From positions 1 to 23,128 of the IMG/VR virus record IMGVR_UViG_3300036845_000098: a DNA stretch of 23,128 nucleotides; one strand, 5' to 3'. Every line of letters begins with the position of its first letter. The stretch's first letter is position 1. The DNA comes from a virus. The translations under genes and the position numbers were made by a program. This document shows, in pieces, positions 5,056 to 22,989 of the stretch. Under the pieces are notes generated by a model that was not told the DNA's origin, made no database searches, and worked only from the letters and a program-made list of their open reading frames with translations.

Positions 5056-5855
5056 TTATGACCGACCTCCCATTCGCTCACGTACCTCGTCATCACTCAG
5101 GTGACGTAGCCGTGGATCAAGTATCCGCGCGGACTCGATACTCATGACCTTACCACGCTGCGTACCGGAGCCGGGCCTACGGATAAATTCTGGCCTTGGA
5201 ACGGTCTCGTTCTTTGCTGAATGCGAACTTGCGTACATCCACGACAGCTGCCGCACTTCATCGATGAGCGCAGCGGTAAGAAGCTCAAGAGTGCTCCACG
5301 GAGCCTGCGCGGGATCGCCGGCGGCGAGAGCAAGTTCCTCGGCCGGTGTTGAGTTCCGTATCGCAGTATTCAAGGCACTCTCCGGTGGGAGATGGTCTAC
5401 CAGTACGAGTAGCCGACGCCAGGATAGTCTTTCACCCAATCCTGACAGCTCTACTCCGTAATAGCGCTGTAGGTCTGCTTCTACCTCCTCCGGGAATGAT
5501 TCGGTGACCCAGAGCGCCTTCTGGATTTTCCCATGTTCATCCGGGACTGCCTACCGCACTCGTTGAATACCGCCTCGACCTGGTAGTTGCGTAGGTCAGC
5601 ATCGACCCAGATCCTGAACTCGTCATCATCATCGATGACTTCTCGTGCCCATGTATCCCAGTCACCCGACGATGCCGCGCGCATCGCGGTTGATGACCAG
5701 TCCTTAGCATGAGCCACATGAACGACCTTGCCGTCAAGTCGCACTGTGAGCTGTTCGCCGACAGCCTCTCGGCGCAACACTTCATCGAGCGCGTCAAGAT
5801 CGACATCGACCGGCATCTCGTCTTCGGGTGCATCCACCCACTCGTCGGCGCTCAC
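5056..5855 (-). CDS. Tail assembly chaperone fusion GT (via -1 frameshift)
   Basis: Reading from GTG at 5855 and slipping back one base at the GGGAAAA heptamer (5532-5526) gives a 266-aa product ending at the TAA at 5058-5056. After residue 110 the fused frame continues IQKALWVTESFPEEVEADLQ and then the whole downstream frame (GERLSWRRLLVLVDHLPPES and on). The downstream frame has no good start of its own; its only early start is a TTG without a ribosome binding site. In siphoviruses G and GT hold the tape measure while tail-tube subunits polymerise, and a fixed G:GT ratio is needed. Position between major tail protein and tape measure, shared N-terminus and canonical slippery site all agree. 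Confidence 0.9.
5481..5855 (-). CDS. Tail assembly chaperone G (unshifted product)
   Basis: A 124-aa acidic protein (EDEMPVDVDLDALDEVLRRE, then IDDDDEF) with a short basic tail (SRRRSGSPNHSRRR) that is reached only if no frameshift occurs. Start is GTG at 5855, which overlaps the major tail protein stop as GTGA. The abundant unshifted chaperone is expected to coat the tape measure. The basic C-terminal tail is probably a by-product of the zero frame past the slippery site. Sequence similarity alone is weak; the call rests on gene order and the frameshift arrangement. Confidence 0.87.
   Translation of the reverse strand: MSADEWVDAPEDEMPVDVDLDALDEVLRREAVGEQLTVRLDGKVVHVAHAKDWSSTAMRAASSGDWDTWAREVIDDDDEFRIWVDADLRNYQVEAVFNECGRQSRMNMGKSRRRSGSPNHSRRR
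5526..5532 (-). promoter_or_regulatory. -1 ribosomal frameshift slippery site GGGAAAA
   Basis: In zero frame the message reads ATG GGA AAA TCC, giving the heptamer G-GGA-AAA of the X-XXY-YYZ class. Both tRNAs can re-pair after a one-base backward slip to GGG-AAA. The -1 frame is then open through the next stop, 43 bases past the zero-frame TAG, to 5056. Confidence 0.93.
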
Positions 5856-6772
5856 GTGAAGTACGCAGACATGTCTTGGCCGTAGCCGATGTAACGCTGG
5901 GCTACTGCGTTCGGAGTACTGCCGATCGTGCCGGGATAGAACGTGAACGTCAGGTCCGTCATCGTGATGTCGCCCTGCTGTACCTGGTCATTCCCGCGCG
6001 CCGTCACCTTGGCGAATGGCGCGTACATGCGACTCCGCTTCACGCCATCGATCGAGTCGAAGATCAGCGAGTACCGGTTGTCAGCCGGAGGGTCCGGGAT
6101 GATGTAGACGGATGTGTAATTGCCGATCGTCAGCGATGCGGAAGCATTCGTCACCGTAGCGGACTGCGACATCGTGAAGCTGGTGGCCGGAGTAACTGAC
6201 GTGATCGTTGTGCCCGACGGGATGCCAGTACCCGAAACGCCCTTGCCGACGTCTGCGTTGATGACAGCTGCGTCGGTGACCGTCTGGCTGCCAATCGCGA
6301 TTGCGCATGACGGGTCGACCCGGCCCGGTGTCGGCTTGAGCGGCGATGATGCGACGGGGAAGATCGACACATCGTCGTACAGTGACTGAACGTACGGGTT
6401 CATCGCTTCCAGGAAGATCGCCTGGCAGGTCTTGACGCCGCCGGTGAGGATGGACCGGATCGGGGTAAGTACCCCGGCCGCCGGGATGTCCTTGATTGTC
6501 TCGTCGAGCTTGAAGATGTAACCGGACACATCAGTCCAGCCACAGCACTTATAGGTCGCGCCGGTGATCGTGGTCGGGTCCTCAAACGCCGCTGGCGGAT
6601 AAAGGTTCGGCGGGCCGACCCACACGACGACATCGCCCGCCGCGTAGAGAAGCTGATTGTTCTTGTACGAGCCGGTACTTGGAAGAGGCAAGCCGGTGAA
6701 CGGCGTGACCTCGGCACCCATCGATTCGACTTCTGATTCCGCTCCTGCTGCTGCCGCTCTAGCTGGTGACAT
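5852..6772 (-). CDS. Major tail tube protein with inserted beta-rich module
   Basis: A 306-aa protein immediately upstream of the tail chaperones, the usual place of the tail tube subunit. Residues about 40-150 (GDVVVWVGPP..., DVSGYIFKLDETIKDIPAAGVL) and 217-306 (YIIPDPPADNRYSLIFDS, GDITMTDLTFTFYP, GQDMSAYFT) form the tube fold. Residues about 155-216 (TVTDAAVINADVGKGVSGTG, then GIPSGTTITSV) look like an inserted repeat-type beta module that resembles one in the gene at 16863-17369. Start ATG at 6772 has GGAGGG 5 nt upstream. Codons are strongly G/C-ending, fitting a highly expressed structural gene. Its stop overlaps the next GTG. Confidence 0.88.
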   Translation of the reverse strand: MSPARAAAAGAESEVESMGAEVTPFTGLPLPSTGSYKNNQLLYAAGDVVVWVGPPNLYPPAAFEDPTTITGATYKCCGWTDVSGYIFKLDETIKDIPAAGVLTPIRSILTGGVKTCQAIFLEAMNPYVQSLYDDVSIFPVASSPLKPTPGRVDPSCAIAIGSQTVTDAAVINADVGKGVSGTGIPSGTTITSVTPATSFTMSQSATVTNASASLTIGNYTSVYIIPDPPADNRYSLIFDSIDGVKRSRMYAPFAKVTARGNDQVQQGDITMTDLTFTFYPGTIGSTPNAVAQRYIGYGQDMSAYFT

Positions 6773-13899: not shown

Positions 13900-15567
13900 T
13901 TACGAGAATGACCAGACATGACCGCCACCCTTCTTTGCAGCAGCTTCCTTACGCTCCTTGTATGACTTCGAGGCAAGCACAAGACGCCTAACATGTCGCG
14001 CGCCGATCATACATACGCAACCATCTATCTTATTTGGACTCTTGGGAGAATCCTTACCAATTGAAATGCCGTACCGGTTCGGGCGGCGACGCGCATTAAC
14101 GACATGACGTCCCAGAATCGAATCCCCGTCATGATGGAATCCAGTTCCGGTGTTAGCATACGTATCAATCTCGGACAGCACCATTTCACATGCTGCAGTA
14201 AACTCCCCGACGTGTGAACGCATATCCCAGGCAACCGGCTGCGGATCTCGCCCCGAAGGTACGGCCCAGACATCAACCGTCTCCTCGAACCATTCCCGCC
14301 AGGTAATCTTGGTAGACTCTTCCCACTCCTTGACATCAGCGAAAAACCCGCAGACATGCCAGCGTTCCTTCGCGACCTGTACCGTAGCATGAACTTCATC
14401 GACCGGTACAAACTTCCCAGTCCCCCTAGGTTCCCATATCCCGAGAGTGAACACGAACCCAGTATCAACATGACACCCTACAAGCGCCGTCGCATCATCG
14501 ACCCGCGAGCCGTCGAAGAACATTACAATATCGTCGCCATCATCGAAGCGGAAGTCAACATCCGCCATGATGGACCACTTCTGCTGCGTCGTCCAGGCAT
14601 CCTCGGCCGACTCGGGCCAGTTGAGGTAGTACCGCTTAGACACATCCAGCTTGATTCGTGGCGACAGGATACGGTTCTCTACAATATCATCAATGTCAGC
14701 CCAGTAAGCATCCCCGTATGCGAACTCTACGGCCTTGCGAATAGATGCTACATCATCGAAATCAACATCCGGGGGCGCCATCCTGGAATCATACAGGATC
14801 TTTCCACGCCCCTTGAGCTTACCCTCTTCCTGCGATACCCAGGCATCGAATGTCGTCTCGGCGACTGATTCCTGCCCCGGTTCCCACGCATTAGACGTCT
14901 CTACAACCCGTGATCCGGACTTACCGACGTTACGGTCCATAACCTCCGCAAGGTCTACTCCGCCATTTGAATGCGTAAAGCTCTCCGTCTGGTCAAGAAT
15001 CGCGAATGTTACAAGCGCTCCTTCTTCTGTTGTTGGGGATGACGTGATGACCATGAGCTGGCCACCGCCCGGAGTGTGGAAGATAGTCTTCCCAGCTTCG
15101 ATGTCATAGTCACGTAGTAGCCGTGAATTCTTCGGCAGAAGCGCACGTACCATGCGCATTGTGTTGACGTTTGCTTGGTCATGCGATGACGCACCAATCT
15201 GTACTAGCGGCATGGAGACGGGTTTGCCTACCACCCCTCCAGGCACTGAAGCATCGAACCGCGCGAGCCGTACAGGCGCTAGCAACTCTATCATCGCCAG
15301 TACAGCTGCGAATGGCGATTTGCCGGCTCCTTTTGGGTACCGGCGGACCCCATGATAGTAAATCCATCGTGAATCCGGCCGTAGCGAGTACCACCATAGC
15401 ATGAACCGTACCTGCGACTCGGTGAACTCCCACCGCAATCCTGCATCCGGGCCATCTGGCTGTCGCAGGTACTTAGTGGCCCAGTGAATCGCTTCCCAGC
15501 CAAGGGTTAGCTCGGGAACCCCCTCCGGCAATGTGACAAGCCTGTCCCTGGGCGCAATAAGGTCCAT
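13900..15567 (-). CDS. terL: Terminase large subunit
   Basis: A 555-aa packaging motor protein. The ATPase half has a Walker-A-like RRYPKGAGKS at residues 75-84 and a Walker B TFAILDQTE around 188-195 (Asp192, Glu195). The nuclease half has FDGSRVDDATALVG near 351-364 (first acidic residue Asp352), then GFFADVKEWE and a late KIDGCVCMIGA segment. It packages DNA through the portal and cuts concatemers. ATG at 15567 has AAGGGG 7 nt upstream. The small subunit gene lies upstream, separated by the H1-like gene. Confidence 0.95.
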   Translation of the reverse strand: MDLIAPRDRLVTLPEGVPELTLGWEAIHWATKYLRQPDGPDAGLRWEFTESQVRFMLWWYSLRPDSRWIYYHGVRRYPKGAGKSPFAAVLAMIELLAPVRLARFDASVPGGVVGKPVSMPLVQIGASSHDQANVNTMRMVRALLPKNSRLLRDYDIEAGKTIFHTPGGGQLMVITSSPTTEEGALVTFAILDQTESFTHSNGGVDLAEVMDRNVGKSGSRVVETSNAWEPGQESVAETTFDAWVSQEEGKLKGRGKILYDSRMAPPDVDFDDVASIRKAVEFAYGDAYWADIDDIVENRILSPRIKLDVSKRYYLNWPESAEDAWTTQQKWSIMADVDFRFDDGDDIVMFFDGSRVDDATALVGCHVDTGFVFTLGIWEPRGTGKFVPVDEVHATVQVAKERWHVCGFFADVKEWEESTKITWREWFEETVDVWAVPSGRDPQPVAWDMRSHVGEFTAACEMVLSEIDTYANTGTGFHHDGDSILGRHVVNARRRPNRYGISIGKDSPKSPNKIDGCVCMIGARHVRRLVLASKSYKERKEAAAKKGGGHVWSFS

Positions 15568-15578
15568 CACATCACCCC

Positions 15579-16409
15579 TTACGGCGTTGCTACATACTTG
15601 GCCAGATTCGCCATTACGGCAGCTGACGGTGTAACCTTCGAGCCAGCCCCACCAGCCCGTGCCACAGATGGCTTCTTGCCGACCGGAGCCTTCTGGTGTG
15701 CCTTCAGTGCCGCGCCGCGCCGGGACGCTGCCGCTGCGGCTGATGCTGCCCGGCGAGCAGCCGCCGCATCAGCACGGGCCTTTGCCGCCGCAGCCCTCTT
15801 GAGCGCAGCTGCCGCTAGCGCCTTATTGCGTGCTGCTGCCTTCGCCTTGGCAGCCGCTGCCTTCTGGGCAGCAGTCTTGGCAGCAGGCTTCTTGGCAGCA
15901 GGCTTCTTGGCGGCCGCCTTTTTCTTGGCGGCAGGCTTCTTTGCCGCTGCCTTTTTCTTGGCGGCCGCTCTGTGGGCGCTGCCAATCCTGCCAAGCCCTC
16001 CGGCATAGTTCGCCAGCTGTCCTACGTTCGCCGCTCCGGCAAGCAGTCCGCCAAGATGGCCTCCACCCGCACCGCCTTTGCCGGTCTGCTTGCCTTTGCC
16101 CTTTGCTTCGGTCTTTGCCTTAGCTTCAGGCTTCTTGGCTTCAGGCTTCTTAGCTTCTTTCACGACATGTGGGCCACCGGCACGCCTGACTTGTGCCGCC
16201 TGCCTCTCCTGTGCGACCTTTGCGCTCGCCCTTGCTGCCGCTGACTCGACATGAGCCGAGTCCCTGACAACAGTCTTACCCCCACTACCCGGAACGGCAT
16301 CACGCACAACCTTGCCGCTCTTGAGGTGCCGAAGATGCCCGTGTCGGACACCGCCGAGAACCCACCGGCCGTGGAACCCGCGCAACTCCGCGAGATTGAA
16401 GTCAACCAT
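15579..16409 (-). CDS. Lys/Ala-rich histone-H1-like protein between terminase genes
   Basis: A 276-aa, very basic protein. Residues 1-35 (MVDFNLAELRGFHGRWVLGG) form a short unique head with an RGxxGRW motif of a kind I recall from actinophage head proteins. Residues 85-105 are AKKPEAKKPEAK repeats. Residues 148-178 are AAKK(K/P)A repeats like the C-terminal tails of histone H1, HupB or Ku-type actinobacterial proteins. Residues 180-235 are a long Ala/Arg/Lys helix. Such tails bind DNA without sequence preference. Position suggests a packaged or packaging-linked DNA-binding protein, but nothing shows function directly. ATG at 16409 is better spaced from GAGG than ATG at 16415. It overlaps the small terminase stop by 8 bp. 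Confidence 0.85.
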   Translation of the reverse strand: MVDFNLAELRGFHGRWVLGGVRHGHLRHLKSGKVVRDAVPGSGGKTVVRDSAHVESAAARASAKVAQERQAAQVRRAGGPHVVKEAKKPEAKKPEAKAKTEAKGKGKQTGKGGAGGGHLGGLLAGAANVGQLANYAGGLGRIGSAHRAAAKKKAAAKKPAAKKKAAAKKPAAKKPAAKTAAQKAAAAKAKAAARNKALAAAALKRAAAAKARADAAAARRAASAAAAASRRGAALKAHQKAPVGKKPSVARAGGAGSKVTPSAAVMANLAKYVATP

Positions 16410-16848
16410 CGACATCCCTCACAATCCCGAGCCGTCCATGCCAGTCAACGACTGCCTGGTCAGCCGCTTCCTCATCCTCATCCGTAACTTCCGGCTCATC
16501 CAGTTCAATACGGTTACGCCGCCGGTCAACAATCGTAACACCGAGCCGTTCTGACAACCGGAGGAATGCCGGCAGCATGGTCGACTTCCGTGTGCGCAAG
16601 AATGTATCATATAGTTGCGCACAGAATACAGCCGTCGCCCAGTCAGACGCCTCATAGAACTCCGACTGCCCAGACAGCGCCAATGACCGGAACCACGACT
16701 GTGCTGTAGGATGCCACATCGGGTTTGCTTCCGGAACCGGGATTCCGGCCCGCCGGGAAGTCCCCTTCGACACAGCAACAAAGCGCGGATCGTTCGCAAA
16801 CCCCGATGCCGCACCAGTACGCTCTTCTGGTCTCTTCTTGGCTACCAT
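16402..16848 (-). CDS. Terminase small subunit
   Basis: A 148-aa protein with the core typical of actinophage small terminases: WHPTAQSWFRSLALSGQSEF, YEASDWATAVFCAQLYDTFL, then LPAFLRLSERLGVTIVDRRR and the acidic tail ELDEPEVTDEDEEAADQ. It recognises the packaging start and presents DNA to the large subunit. ATG at 16848 follows TTG 16851; upstream bases show only a weak GGCGG site. It lies two genes before the large subunit. Confidence 0.88.
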   Translation of the reverse strand: MVAKKRPEERTGAASGFANDPRFVAVSKGTSRRAGIPVPEANPMWHPTAQSWFRSLALSGQSEFYEASDWATAVFCAQLYDTFLRTRKSTMLPAFLRLSERLGVTIVDRRRNRIELDEPEVTDEDEEAADQAVVDWHGRLGIVRDVDG

Positions 16849-16862
16849 CAATCGCCGCCGTT

Positions 16863-17369
16863 CTAGTGTGTGTATGTGAGTGTTGTCGAAACAGGGAGTG
16901 CCCCGGCGCCAACCACGAACGTCAGCGCTGAAGCGGTAGCGGTTGCTGCCGCAGAGATGACATAGCCAGTTCCGGCCGTCACAGAAACGATCGTGGCTGC
17001 GGCCGGGATGCCAGGTCCACTAATGGACTTGCCGGCATCCGCAGCAACGGCATGAGGGTCGGTGACGGTTGTGGTTGTGTTGGTCCCACATCCGGTGTCT
17101 GAACGACCGGTCAATGGAGCACCGAGGTTGATGACGTTGGAGCGGACGTACTGCGCGGCAGCATGAAGGCCTGCTACCGCCCAGCGATTCCCGCCGATGA
17201 CCTGATCGGCTACCGTCCATGTTGCGTCGTCGGGACTCGTCTCCAGATTCACGACGCAGTCCGGCGCAAGGCTGGAGACCTTCATCCCGAGATGCTTGAA
17301 TGTGGCACTAGCCCCGGCATTGACGCCAGGCCCGGCCCCAACTGCCGTAGTTGTGTGGTTAAACTGCAT
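16863..17369 (-). CDS. Beta-rich putative virion (decoration-like) protein
   Basis: A 168-aa protein. Residues about 20-85 (ASATFKHLGMKVSSL, NLETSPDDATWTVADQVIGG, then AAAQYVRSNVINLG) look like a beta sandwich of the kind found in phage decoration or adhesion proteins. Residues about 98-153 contain VTDPHAVAADAGKSISGPG and IPAAATIVSVTAG, closely patterned on the insert of the major tail protein (5852-6772). ATG at 17369 is taken because upstream in-frame starts lie inside the preceding gene; an AGAGGA-type site lies about 11 nt upstream. A surface-exposed structural role is inferred from the shared module, despite the place beside the packaging genes. Confidence 0.75.
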   Translation of the reverse strand: MQFNHTTTAVGAGPGVNAGASATFKHLGMKVSSLAPDCVVNLETSPDDATWTVADQVIGGNRWAVAGLHAAAQYVRSNVINLGAPLTGRSDTGCGTNTTTTVTDPHAVAADAGKSISGPGIPAAATIVSVTAGTGYVISAAATATASALTFVVGAGALPVSTTLTYTH

Positions 17370-17385
17370 GATTCGTCCATTCCTC

Positions 17386-17622
17386 TCAGTTGCCCGCCTT
17401 GCCGCTGCTAGAGCCGCCCTCCATGTAACTGCTATCACCGGAATCCTGACCAGGGCCAGGTACCGGTCCATCTCCTTGCTTCCATGCCTCAGGGACAACA
17501 CCCGCGCCATGACATATGGGACAGACATGAGTGTCTACCCGGCCGGTGCCGGAGCAAGGTGGGCAAACCTTCTCGCCAGCCTTGGGCTTCCGGTTCTTCT
17601 GAATCTTCACAAACGGCGGCAT
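17386..17622 (-). CDS. Small CxxC zinc-knuckle protein (DnaJ-like motif)
   Basis: A 78-aa protein. Residues 20-41 read CPPCSGTGRVDTHVCPICHG, i.e. two CxxCxGxG knuckles (Cys20, 23, 34, 37) like the central zinc region of DnaJ. The rest is a basic start (VKIQKNRKPKAGEK) and a Gly/Ser/Asp-rich tail. Such mini-proteins occur in actinobacterial phages, where their role is unknown to me; zinc binding and protein contact are likely. ATG at 17622 has AGAGGG 6 nt upstream. It overlaps the HNH gene by 16 bp. Confidence 0.82.
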   Translation of the reverse strand: MPPFVKIQKNRKPKAGEKVCPPCSGTGRVDTHVCPICHGAGVVPEAWKQGDGPVPGPGQDSGDSSYMEGGSSSGKAGN

Positions 17623-17942
17623 AACAATCCCTCTCCACAACGCAGAATTCCAGGGTGTGGCTCAACCGGACGCATCCGCATGGAACGCCGGGCAGCATTC
17701 TGCGCACCAATCTGCGCACCCGTCCGGCGCAGATGATGCGAATGACAAAGACCACGCAACATCTCAAGACGGTGGTCATCAGGCGAACCAAGATGGTCAA
17801 CTTCCGTCGAGTCCTGTCCGCAACCCCACTCCTCACCAGGAAGAATCCCCCATTGACATCCAGGGTCCCGCGCCAGAACAGAAGCGCGCAGACGCCCCCA
17901 CCCAGGGGGCAGGGGCGTGCTACGCCAGGAACCGCCGCTCAT
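17607..17942 (-). CDS. HNH endonuclease
   Basis: A 111-aa HNH nuclease. The order is GWGRLRASVLARDPGCQW (Cys29), Cys41, TEVDHLGSPDDHRLE (Asp49-His50, the general base) and LRGLCHSHHLRRTGAQ (Cys66, His69). Cys29, Cys41, Cys66 and His69 probably hold zinc. The usual Asn of the motif appears replaced near EMLRGLC. HNH proteins next to terminases take part in packaging cleavage in several phages. ATG at 17942 overlaps the stop of the 58-aa gene (ATGA), which settles the start. Confidence 0.9.
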   Translation of the reverse strand: MSGGSWRSTPLPPGWGRLRASVLARDPGCQWGILPGEEWGCGQDSTEVDHLGSPDDHRLEMLRGLCHSHHLRRTGAQIGAQNAARRSMRMRPVEPHPGILRCGEGLLCRRL

Positions 17943-18115
17943 GGTCCCGCGCCAGACGTTGCTAGACTGAGGGGAGACCGGCAAGGGAACTGGTGACCAG
18001 GAACAGTGCCCGAGACCTGGCCCGAGAACGCAACCGCGCCGCCACCAGAAGACAATCCAACAAGGGTCGTCGCCGCCTTCATGCCTTCATCCACCACCGG
18101 GCTAACATCACCCAT
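17939..18115 (-). CDS. 58-aa first gene of the late block
   Basis: A small frame from ATG at 18115 to TGA at 17941-17939 (58 aa: MGDVSPVVDEGMKAATTLVG, then LSSGGGAVAFSGQVSG). A strong site AAGGAGGT lies 5 nt or so upstream, and its stop overlaps the HNH ATG. The promoter at 18153-18181 lies about 30 nt before its start codon. The family is not recognised; it is Gly/Ser/Ala-rich with no membrane segment of usual length. The well-formed start and coupling to HNH make it likely to be translated. Confidence 0.72.
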   Translation of the reverse strand: MGDVSPVVDEGMKAATTLVGLSSGGGAVAFSGQVSGTVPGHQFPCRSPLSLATSGAGP

Positions 18116-22186: not shown

Positions 22187-22234
22187 CCCGCCCGCGTACC
22201 AGTCTCCCCCAGAAACCGCCGGTGCGCGGGCGGG
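22187..22234 (+). terminator. GC-rich inverted repeat after the 143-aa gene
   Basis: CCCGCCCGCG (22187-22196) and its exact complement CGCGGGCGGG (22225-22234) enclose 28 nt. There is no U-run, so it is either a GC-type terminator or a leader structure. TATACT follows at 22237-22242 without a matching -35. The loop TCCCCCAG (22205-22212) could instead pair with CTGGGGGA (22251-22258), giving two exclusive folds ahead of the secreted-protein gene. Confidence 0.5.
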
Positions 22235-22299
22235 CCTATACTTCCCCGGACTGGGGGAAAGCCGGCAGGAAAGCCCTGTCGGAGAACGAAAGGTACCAA

Positions 22300-22989
22300 A
22301 TGTTTTTCAGGAAGTCGGTAGTACTCGGAGCGGCAATCGCATGTGCCGCCATCATCCCGGCAGGCGGGGCCGCAATGGCCTCTCCGTCCGTCAATCGTCC
22401 GGCCGCGACACCGTCGTGTGGCCACCAGTGCATCGACCCGTATAACCGGGTGTGGGGTAAGGGGGAAGTACTCGACGCGCTCAGCGGCGGCAACGGAACC
22501 GTCGGAGAACTGGTCGGCCTGTCACGCCAGACAAACTCCAACGCGGGCGAGGACTTCACCTACAACTTCGACGGCCCGGTCACGGAACTGGTCGGCACCG
22601 GCCAGCTCTCGCCCGTCACCATCGACCACTACGCCGGGGACTACGCATTCGAGCTCACGTACGAGCCGAATGGCGAGGACTCTGACCTGTGCGTCGGCCT
22701 CAACGCGGGCGTTCCCTCGCAGGGCTGGAAGCTCAAGCTAGAGCCTTGTGGCGTCTCGGCCGACACGATCTGGATCGTGGACTTCTCCGGCAACGGTTCC
22801 GGCTTCGCCAGTGTGATCTCCGGGACGACAACCAAGTTCTCTCACCCGCTCTCCTGGACGTACCCCAGCTCGGCAACCCCGTTCGACAGCCCACGTCCGT
22901 CGATCGTGGTCGACGACCTGCTGACCAACTCGCGAGGGTTCCACCCGAACGAGCAGCAGTGGGGCGCAAGGTTCGGCGTCATCAAGTAA
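22300..22989 (+). CDS. Secreted protein with Sec signal peptide (host-like)
   Basis: A 229-aa protein. MFFRKSVVLGAAIACAAIIP and GGAAMASP form a signal peptide (RK start, hydrophobic core about residues 6-21, AMA-S cleavage near 27). The mature part has Cys37 and Cys41 in SCGHQCID, then RQTNSNAGEDFTYNFDGPVT, YAFELTYEPNGEDSDLCVGL, LKLEPCGVSADTIWIVDF and a C-terminal QQWGARFGVIK: an all-beta, disulfide-containing exported protein. The pattern recalls secreted proteins of unknown function in Streptomyces-like bacteria (from memory). ATG at 22300 has AAAGG 6 nt upstream. Its own terminator follows. Strong G/C-ending codons fit acquisition from a high-GC host. Role unknown; a lysogeny or superinfection trait is only a guess. 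Confidence 0.82.
   Translation: MFFRKSVVLGAAIACAAIIPAGGAAMASPSVNRPAATPSCGHQCIDPYNRVWGKGEVLDALSGGNGTVGELVGLSRQTNSNAGEDFTYNFDGPVTELVGTGQLSPVTIDHYAGDYAFELTYEPNGEDSDLCVGLNAGVPSQGWKLKLEPCGVSADTIWIVDFSGNGSGFASVISGTTTKFSHPLSWTYPSSATPFDSPRPSIVVDDLLTNSRGFHPNEQQWGARFGVIK

Follow-up and report, generated by a model that had tools for sequence, protein, structure and literature searches.

A strongly basic protein encoded between the terminase genes of uncultivated soil phages is a candidate internal head protein

The small (TerS) and large (TerL) terminase genes of an uncultivated soil tailed-phage lineage are separated by a gene for a strongly basic protein. We put at about even the chance that this product is an internal head protein, a capsid passenger that is loaded by means of a short N-terminal tag, bound to the packaged DNA and ejected with it. 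The gene was analyzed in a 23,128-nt stretch of viral DNA (the window) and in relatives from IMG/VR. It is a real gene under purifying selection, and its product is largely disordered and strongly positive, with two conserved linear ends.

Results

A basic, largely disordered protein interrupts the terminase pair

The original prediction of a strongly basic, Lys/Ala-rich protein encoded between TerS and TerL was borne out by profile matches for both neighbors and by the composition of the product (Table 1). The first ATG of the ORF would give a gene at 15579–16415 (-) and a protein of 278 amino acids; the start that aligns in relatives, MV[DN]FN (MVDFN in the window), lies at 16409, is preceded by a GAGGG box 6 nt upstream and yields 276 amino acids. 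TerL begins 8 nt past the stop codon and is followed by genes for a portal, a VG15-type protein, a scaffold and a capsid protein. Because of this short gap and the overlap with TerS, the three genes very likely form a single late operon.

Table 1. Positions of the basic gene, the parts of its product and the flanking terminase genes in the window
Feature	Position	Strand	Evidence or remark
Basic, largely disordered protein, 276 aa, net charge +49	15579..16409	(-)	Intact in 24 further contigs
N-terminal tag, residues 1–20, MVDFNLAELRGFHGRWVLGG	16350..16409	(-)	Invariant residues in 21 members; common to other terminase-flanking proteins and portal/MuF-like ORFs
Gly/Ala-rich hydrophobic segment, residues 112–149, predicted helix 136–149	15963..16076	(-)	
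Lys/Ala/Pro tract, residues 148–180, AAKKPAAKK repeats	15870..15968	(-)	Composition
Long Ala/Lys/Arg-rich helix, residues 180–239	15693..15872	(-)	AlphaFold pLDDT about 97
C-terminal conserved motif VTPSAAVMANLAKYV, residues 258–273, predicted helix 263–273	15591..15638	(-)	Invariant P261, S262, V265, M266, L269, Y272
TerS, upstream neighbor, 8-nt overlap with basic gene start	16402..16851	(-)	Pfam Terminase_7, 2.3e-27
TerL, downstream neighbor	13900..15570	(-)	phrog_9, 2e-60

The basic protein has a pI of 11.7, and Lys and Ala together make up 0.88 of residues 148–180 and 0.70 of residues 181–240. The 11 other window proteins measured had net charges of 0 or below and Lys plus Ala fractions of 0.07–0.21. 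An AlphaFold model built with 21 sequences (mean pLDDT 65) contained helices at residues 51–76, 136–149, 180–239 (confident) and 263–273 and no globular domain, and the head was unstructured. The helix at 180–239 is present at full length only in the closest relatives of the window protein.

Several features of the neighborhood were recorded separately. PHROG 226 labels TerS a "minor tail protein" (2.4e-21), at odds with the Pfam terminase match, and the label looks wrong. In the window, the gene at 16863–17375 (-), whose product starts MQFNHTTTAVGAGPGVNAGA, is found upstream of TerS; in sister lineages (L029–L045 and others), related genes occupy the space between the two terminase genes, so gene order around TerS has been shuffled. 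A VTDA..DVGK.VSG.GIP.GT.I.SVT..TSF..S..AT.T.A.LT-like insert is common to this protein and to another structural-region protein at 5852–6772 (-), as if one module had entered both. The small protein at 17386–17640 (-) carries zinc-ribbon-like, DnaJ-like CPPCSGTG..CPICHGAG motifs and adjoins an HNH endonuclease (17607–17984); related ORFs lie near TerS in L006, L015 and L018. On the strand opposite to the head genes, the ORF at 22222–22989 (+) has a signal-peptide-like start from about residue 28 as listed (MFFRKSVVLGAAIACAAIIPAGGAAMA), and its product looks secreted.

The two ends and the charge are conserved

Family members were collected from IMG/VR by TerL-based and family-based scans and by a DNA scan for the head motif. 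The gene was found intact in related phages, in 24 further contigs, each time between TerS and TerL. In one 60,717-base contig (L005/L063), the gene is split across the two contig ends, as expected if the genome is circular or circularly permuted. For most diverged pairs, pairwise dN/dS was about 0.1–0.25 over the 33 N-terminal and 36 C-terminal residues, and values across the middle were mostly 0.1–0.6; values for the head were noisy in the closest pairs, reaching 0.73. All four Ala codons are used in the Lys/Ala zone of the window protein. Together, the intact contigs, the dN/dS values and the codon usage show that this is not a chance frame.

Among 21 diverse members, the head residues M1, F4, E8, R10, G11, H13, G14, R15, W16, G19, G20 and R27 were invariant, as were the six tail residues given in Table 1. 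The conserved linear motifs of the family are thus FN..E.RG[FY]HGRW..GG at the N terminus and PS..VMA.L..Y at the C terminus. Within these loci, the only other gene with the C-terminal motif is a short basic relative in L105. The RGFHGRW head had been proposed as a possible anchor; it is conserved and likely a targeting or anchoring element. All 21 members had a net charge of +38 to +61 and a pI of 10.9–12, whereas composition drifted (Lys 5%–15%, Ala 14%–31%, with Arg replacing Lys in many) and length ranged from 243 to 471 amino acids. These data indicate that charge and the two terminal motifs, not Lys/Ala richness, are conserved in the family.

The terminase junction was filled within this lineage

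In the TerL tree, carriers of the basic gene formed one group (support 98) nested in a 36-row group (support 100). Apart from one truncated contig, the remaining rows of this larger group have other genes with the tag. In sister clades farther away, TerS either adjoins TerL or is separated from it by genes that bear no tag. The reference TerL rows, mostly actinobacterial prophages plus three phages, formed one separate group. The question had been raised whether other actinophages carry such a gene at this place. They do not in the 21 prophage loci and 3 phages with related TerL in which both genes can be seen: in these reference rows TerS directly adjoins or overlaps TerL. This contiguity, together with the tree, places the filling of the junction within the present lineage.

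Shorter basic genes (155–179 amino acids, strongly positive) were found directly after TerS in five sister contigs plus a near-copy (L105, L021, L025, L018/L019 and L024, the last partial). They share a variant head, MAGWTGAQPR..G[KQ]FG, and the L105 product has the same C-terminal motif, PSQAVMANLRTYL. Homology between the short and long forms is supported for L105 (E 5.3e-5) and for the head, and is weaker for the rest. Because the short genes coexist with tagged enzymes in sister phages, the basic gene probably predates the long form seen in the window, and a simple swap of cargo within a lineage of tagged enzymes was dropped as an explanation.

The N-terminal motif recurs on unrelated proteins

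In sister phages, other proteins encoded beside TerL start with the same motif, R[DG].HG[RK]W..GG, preceded by an FN..E, FDP.E or DVS.EL stretch. One is a 665-amino-acid protein with an ADP-ribosyltransferase (ART) domain (PF03496, 1.8e-20; Alt-like phrog_802). A second group has invariant HE.GHG and NEM.AE.WTEY motifs, by which it appears peptidase-like; AlphaFold modeled the protein with low confidence (pLDDT 52), with no match to a known fold, and the tag of the group aligned in register with the head of the basic family (profile alignment, E 2.8e-4). Tagged 220-amino-acid proteins directly after TerL (L018, L051 and L055) had no family match.

Two DNA scans of IMG/VR for the tag returned 29 and 22 contigs. 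In 13 longer contigs, 14 of 15 matches lay at terminase genes, the remaining one being weak (E 0.02). TerL loci gave 13 matches, compared with none in residue-shuffled ORFs. The RDPHG tag pattern was absent from 396 actinobacterial genomes and is therefore not a common cellular motif. Outside the lineage, the tag sits inside long ORFs of other, unrelated viruses: at position 456 after a portal domain (43–416) in L142, after MuF-like domains in L126 (motif at 586) and L136 (motif at 503), and before ART-like and Zeta-toxin domains in L132 and L138. In unrelated contigs it recurs twice within one L130 ORF and in three L139 ORFs, and in L138 it immediately precedes the Zeta-toxin domain; it looks as though each module moves around together with a tag of its own. 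The portal and VG15 proteins of the window itself are without it. From this distribution, the N-terminal motif appears to behave as a tag, and a role in loading is suggested by analogy.

Database searches place the protein outside known families

Searches of Pfam and PHROG with the basic protein returned no family at E up to 1. Kinship with histone H1, to which the protein had been likened, was not supported: Pfam revealed no linker histone H1/H5 winged-helix domain (PF00538), no HU domain (PF00216) and no match to Hc1 or Hc2 models, and the Lys/Ala composition is not conserved. PHROG and Pfam gave no MuF domain, and the gene lies between TerS and TerL rather than directly downstream of the portal gene, where SPP1 gp7 and MuF genes are placed. 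Polyvalent proteins combine two or more disparate functional domains; in the basic protein, no domain at all was found with PHROG, Pfam or NCBIfam. An NCBIfam match to GltJ was compositional and far below the cutoff, and was discarded. A PDB profile search gave no match. PHROG (E up to 1) also detected no relation to the T4 internal proteins or their targeting sequence; what the protein does share with that class is a short N-terminal sequence common to several otherwise unrelated proteins of a phage group, for which loading would be the corresponding role.

Neither the N-terminal 92 amino acids, the tag consensus nor the tagged relatives had a tblastn match in 50,697 annotated phages, and a family alignment scan of 84,980 prokaryotic genomes gave 31 pattern matches, none of them confirmed. 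A full-text literature search for the HGRW motif returned nothing relevant, and one for H1-like phage proteins close to terminase yielded a single paper, on a jumbo phage. By the sequence features tested, the protein is not an H1, HU, Hc1/Hc2, MuF or T4 internal protein. Its tag and place assign it to a group of terminase-flanking tagged proteins, of which we found no description in the open literature, and its mode of action would, as far as can be inferred, resemble that of an internal head protein.

Discussion

We propose that the basic protein is made late, together with the terminase genes, and that its N-terminal tag would carry it into the procapsid, probably with the portal, a MuF-type protein or the scaffold as its docking partner. 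The long basic body would then hold it electrostatically on the packaged DNA, with which it would exit at infection, most likely to shield or organize the incoming DNA or to act on the host nucleoid. DNA binding is deduced from charge only, and presence in the virion and ejection are proposed by analogy with known head passengers. Purifying selection on head and tail and a charge that stays constant despite compositional drift are consistent with such a passenger. So is the occurrence of the tag on other kinds of protein beside TerL, including the Alt-like ADP-ribosyltransferase, and after portal and MuF-like domains, that is, on proteins located inside the capsid or at its gate. The protein is unlikely to act as a bulk counter-ion: with a charge of +49 each, tens of molecules would by our estimate offset no more than a few percent of the charge on a 50–60 kb genome.

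The original prediction had also considered that the protein might hold DNA at the packaging motor. An accessory that works with TerS and TerL, holding DNA or bridging the subunits, would explain the gene order, the overlap with TerS and the constant position between the two genes in this lineage. However, sister phages have tagged enzymes at the same site, some tagged proteins come after TerL (L018 and L055), and closely related terminases work without any such protein, which makes a motor role unlikely. The basic character, the conserved head and the interruption of the terminase pair all stand from that proposal, but holding DNA at the motor lost ground, and an internal head passenger is favored, because the tag is common to unrelated proteins next to TerL and to portal/MuF-like ORFs. 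It is also improbable that the protein is a head passenger that serves mainly to coat host nucleoid proteins or displace them, in the manner of actinobacterial HupB-like Lys/Ala tails. Its tagged siblings are effector-like (ART, and the Zeta toxin in L138) and the Lys/Ala tract resembles HupB and H1 tails, but many members have Arg instead of this Lys/Ala character, packaged DNA would compete for the protein, and sequence cannot separate this option from the more general head passenger.

Pairing with the scaffold or capsid during procapsid assembly, followed by loss or degradation, is a poorer candidate still; the scaffold is acidic (pI 4.7, net charge -14) and the operon is late, but the tag on enzymes and on portal/MuF-like extensions would be left unexplained. 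Functionless low-complexity filler from replication slippage would account for the KKPEA and AAKKPAAKK repeats and for the range of lengths. It is extremely improbable given the frame kept intact in 25 contigs, the invariant head and tail and the constant charge, and was rejected because dN/dS is well below 1.

We hypothesize, tentatively and at less than even confidence, that R[DG].HG[RK]W..GG can be transferred between proteins as a general head-loading signal that has no relation to the T4 targeting sequence. Peptidase-like proteins, an ADP-ribosyltransferase and the basic DNA-binding protein would be the passengers that a group of uncultivated phages brings in this way into the capsid and from there into the host. 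Some would be free proteins encoded next to TerL, and others would be extensions of portal and MuF-like proteins. The portal and MuF-like carriers come from unrelated viruses, so a single common role is hypothetical; the 16- to 20-amino-acid motif could instead serve for cleavage, dock on a partner other than the head or have arisen by convergence.

Internal head proteins outside the T4, T7 and MuF systems are hard to recognize because they evolve fast and have no common domains. If the proposal is true, a motif found on a basic protein, on predicted enzymes and on portal/MuF-like extensions would make passengers findable by sequence, provide a testable head-loading signal and identify the junction between TerS and TerL in this lineage as a site for passenger genes. 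Whether some phages deliver a chromatin-like protein of their own to the cell is a question that the basic member raises.

Comparison with known systems

Histone H1, HupB tails and chlamydial Hc1 and Hc2 contain Lys/Ala/Pro-rich, disordered basic tracts that can in principle bind DNA. The window protein has such a tract, but no matching Pfam domain, and its family does not keep the composition. Adenovirus core proteins VII, V and mu, also basic and disordered, travel with the DNA inside the capsid; virus and sequence are unrelated, and the likeness lies in basic disorder, DNA binding by the window protein being predicted from charge.

Phage T4 sends its internal proteins into the prohead core by an N-terminal sequence of about 10 amino acids and also packages the ADP-ribosyltransferase gpAlt (PMC9958956). 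The present lineage is alike in having a short N-terminal sequence on several proteins, an ADP-ribosyltransferase among them. It differs in that no sequence relation to T4 internal proteins was detected, the tag is unlike the T4 motif and the genes flank TerL; packaging and protease trimming, both features of the T4 proteins, are hypothetical for the window protein. In SPP1, the portal draws the DNA-binding protein gp7 inside the procapsid (PMC6316719); in its MuF relatives, toxins are fused to the C terminus (PMC5576092). The window protein lacks a MuF domain, and its gene comes before TerL instead of after the portal gene; its type of tag follows portal and MuF-like domains elsewhere. Polyvalent proteins are predicted to be packaged in the head and injected, with MPTase, ART and other domains (Iyer et al., 2017; PMC5512222); the window protein has no enzymatic domain, but some of its tagged relatives fit this description.
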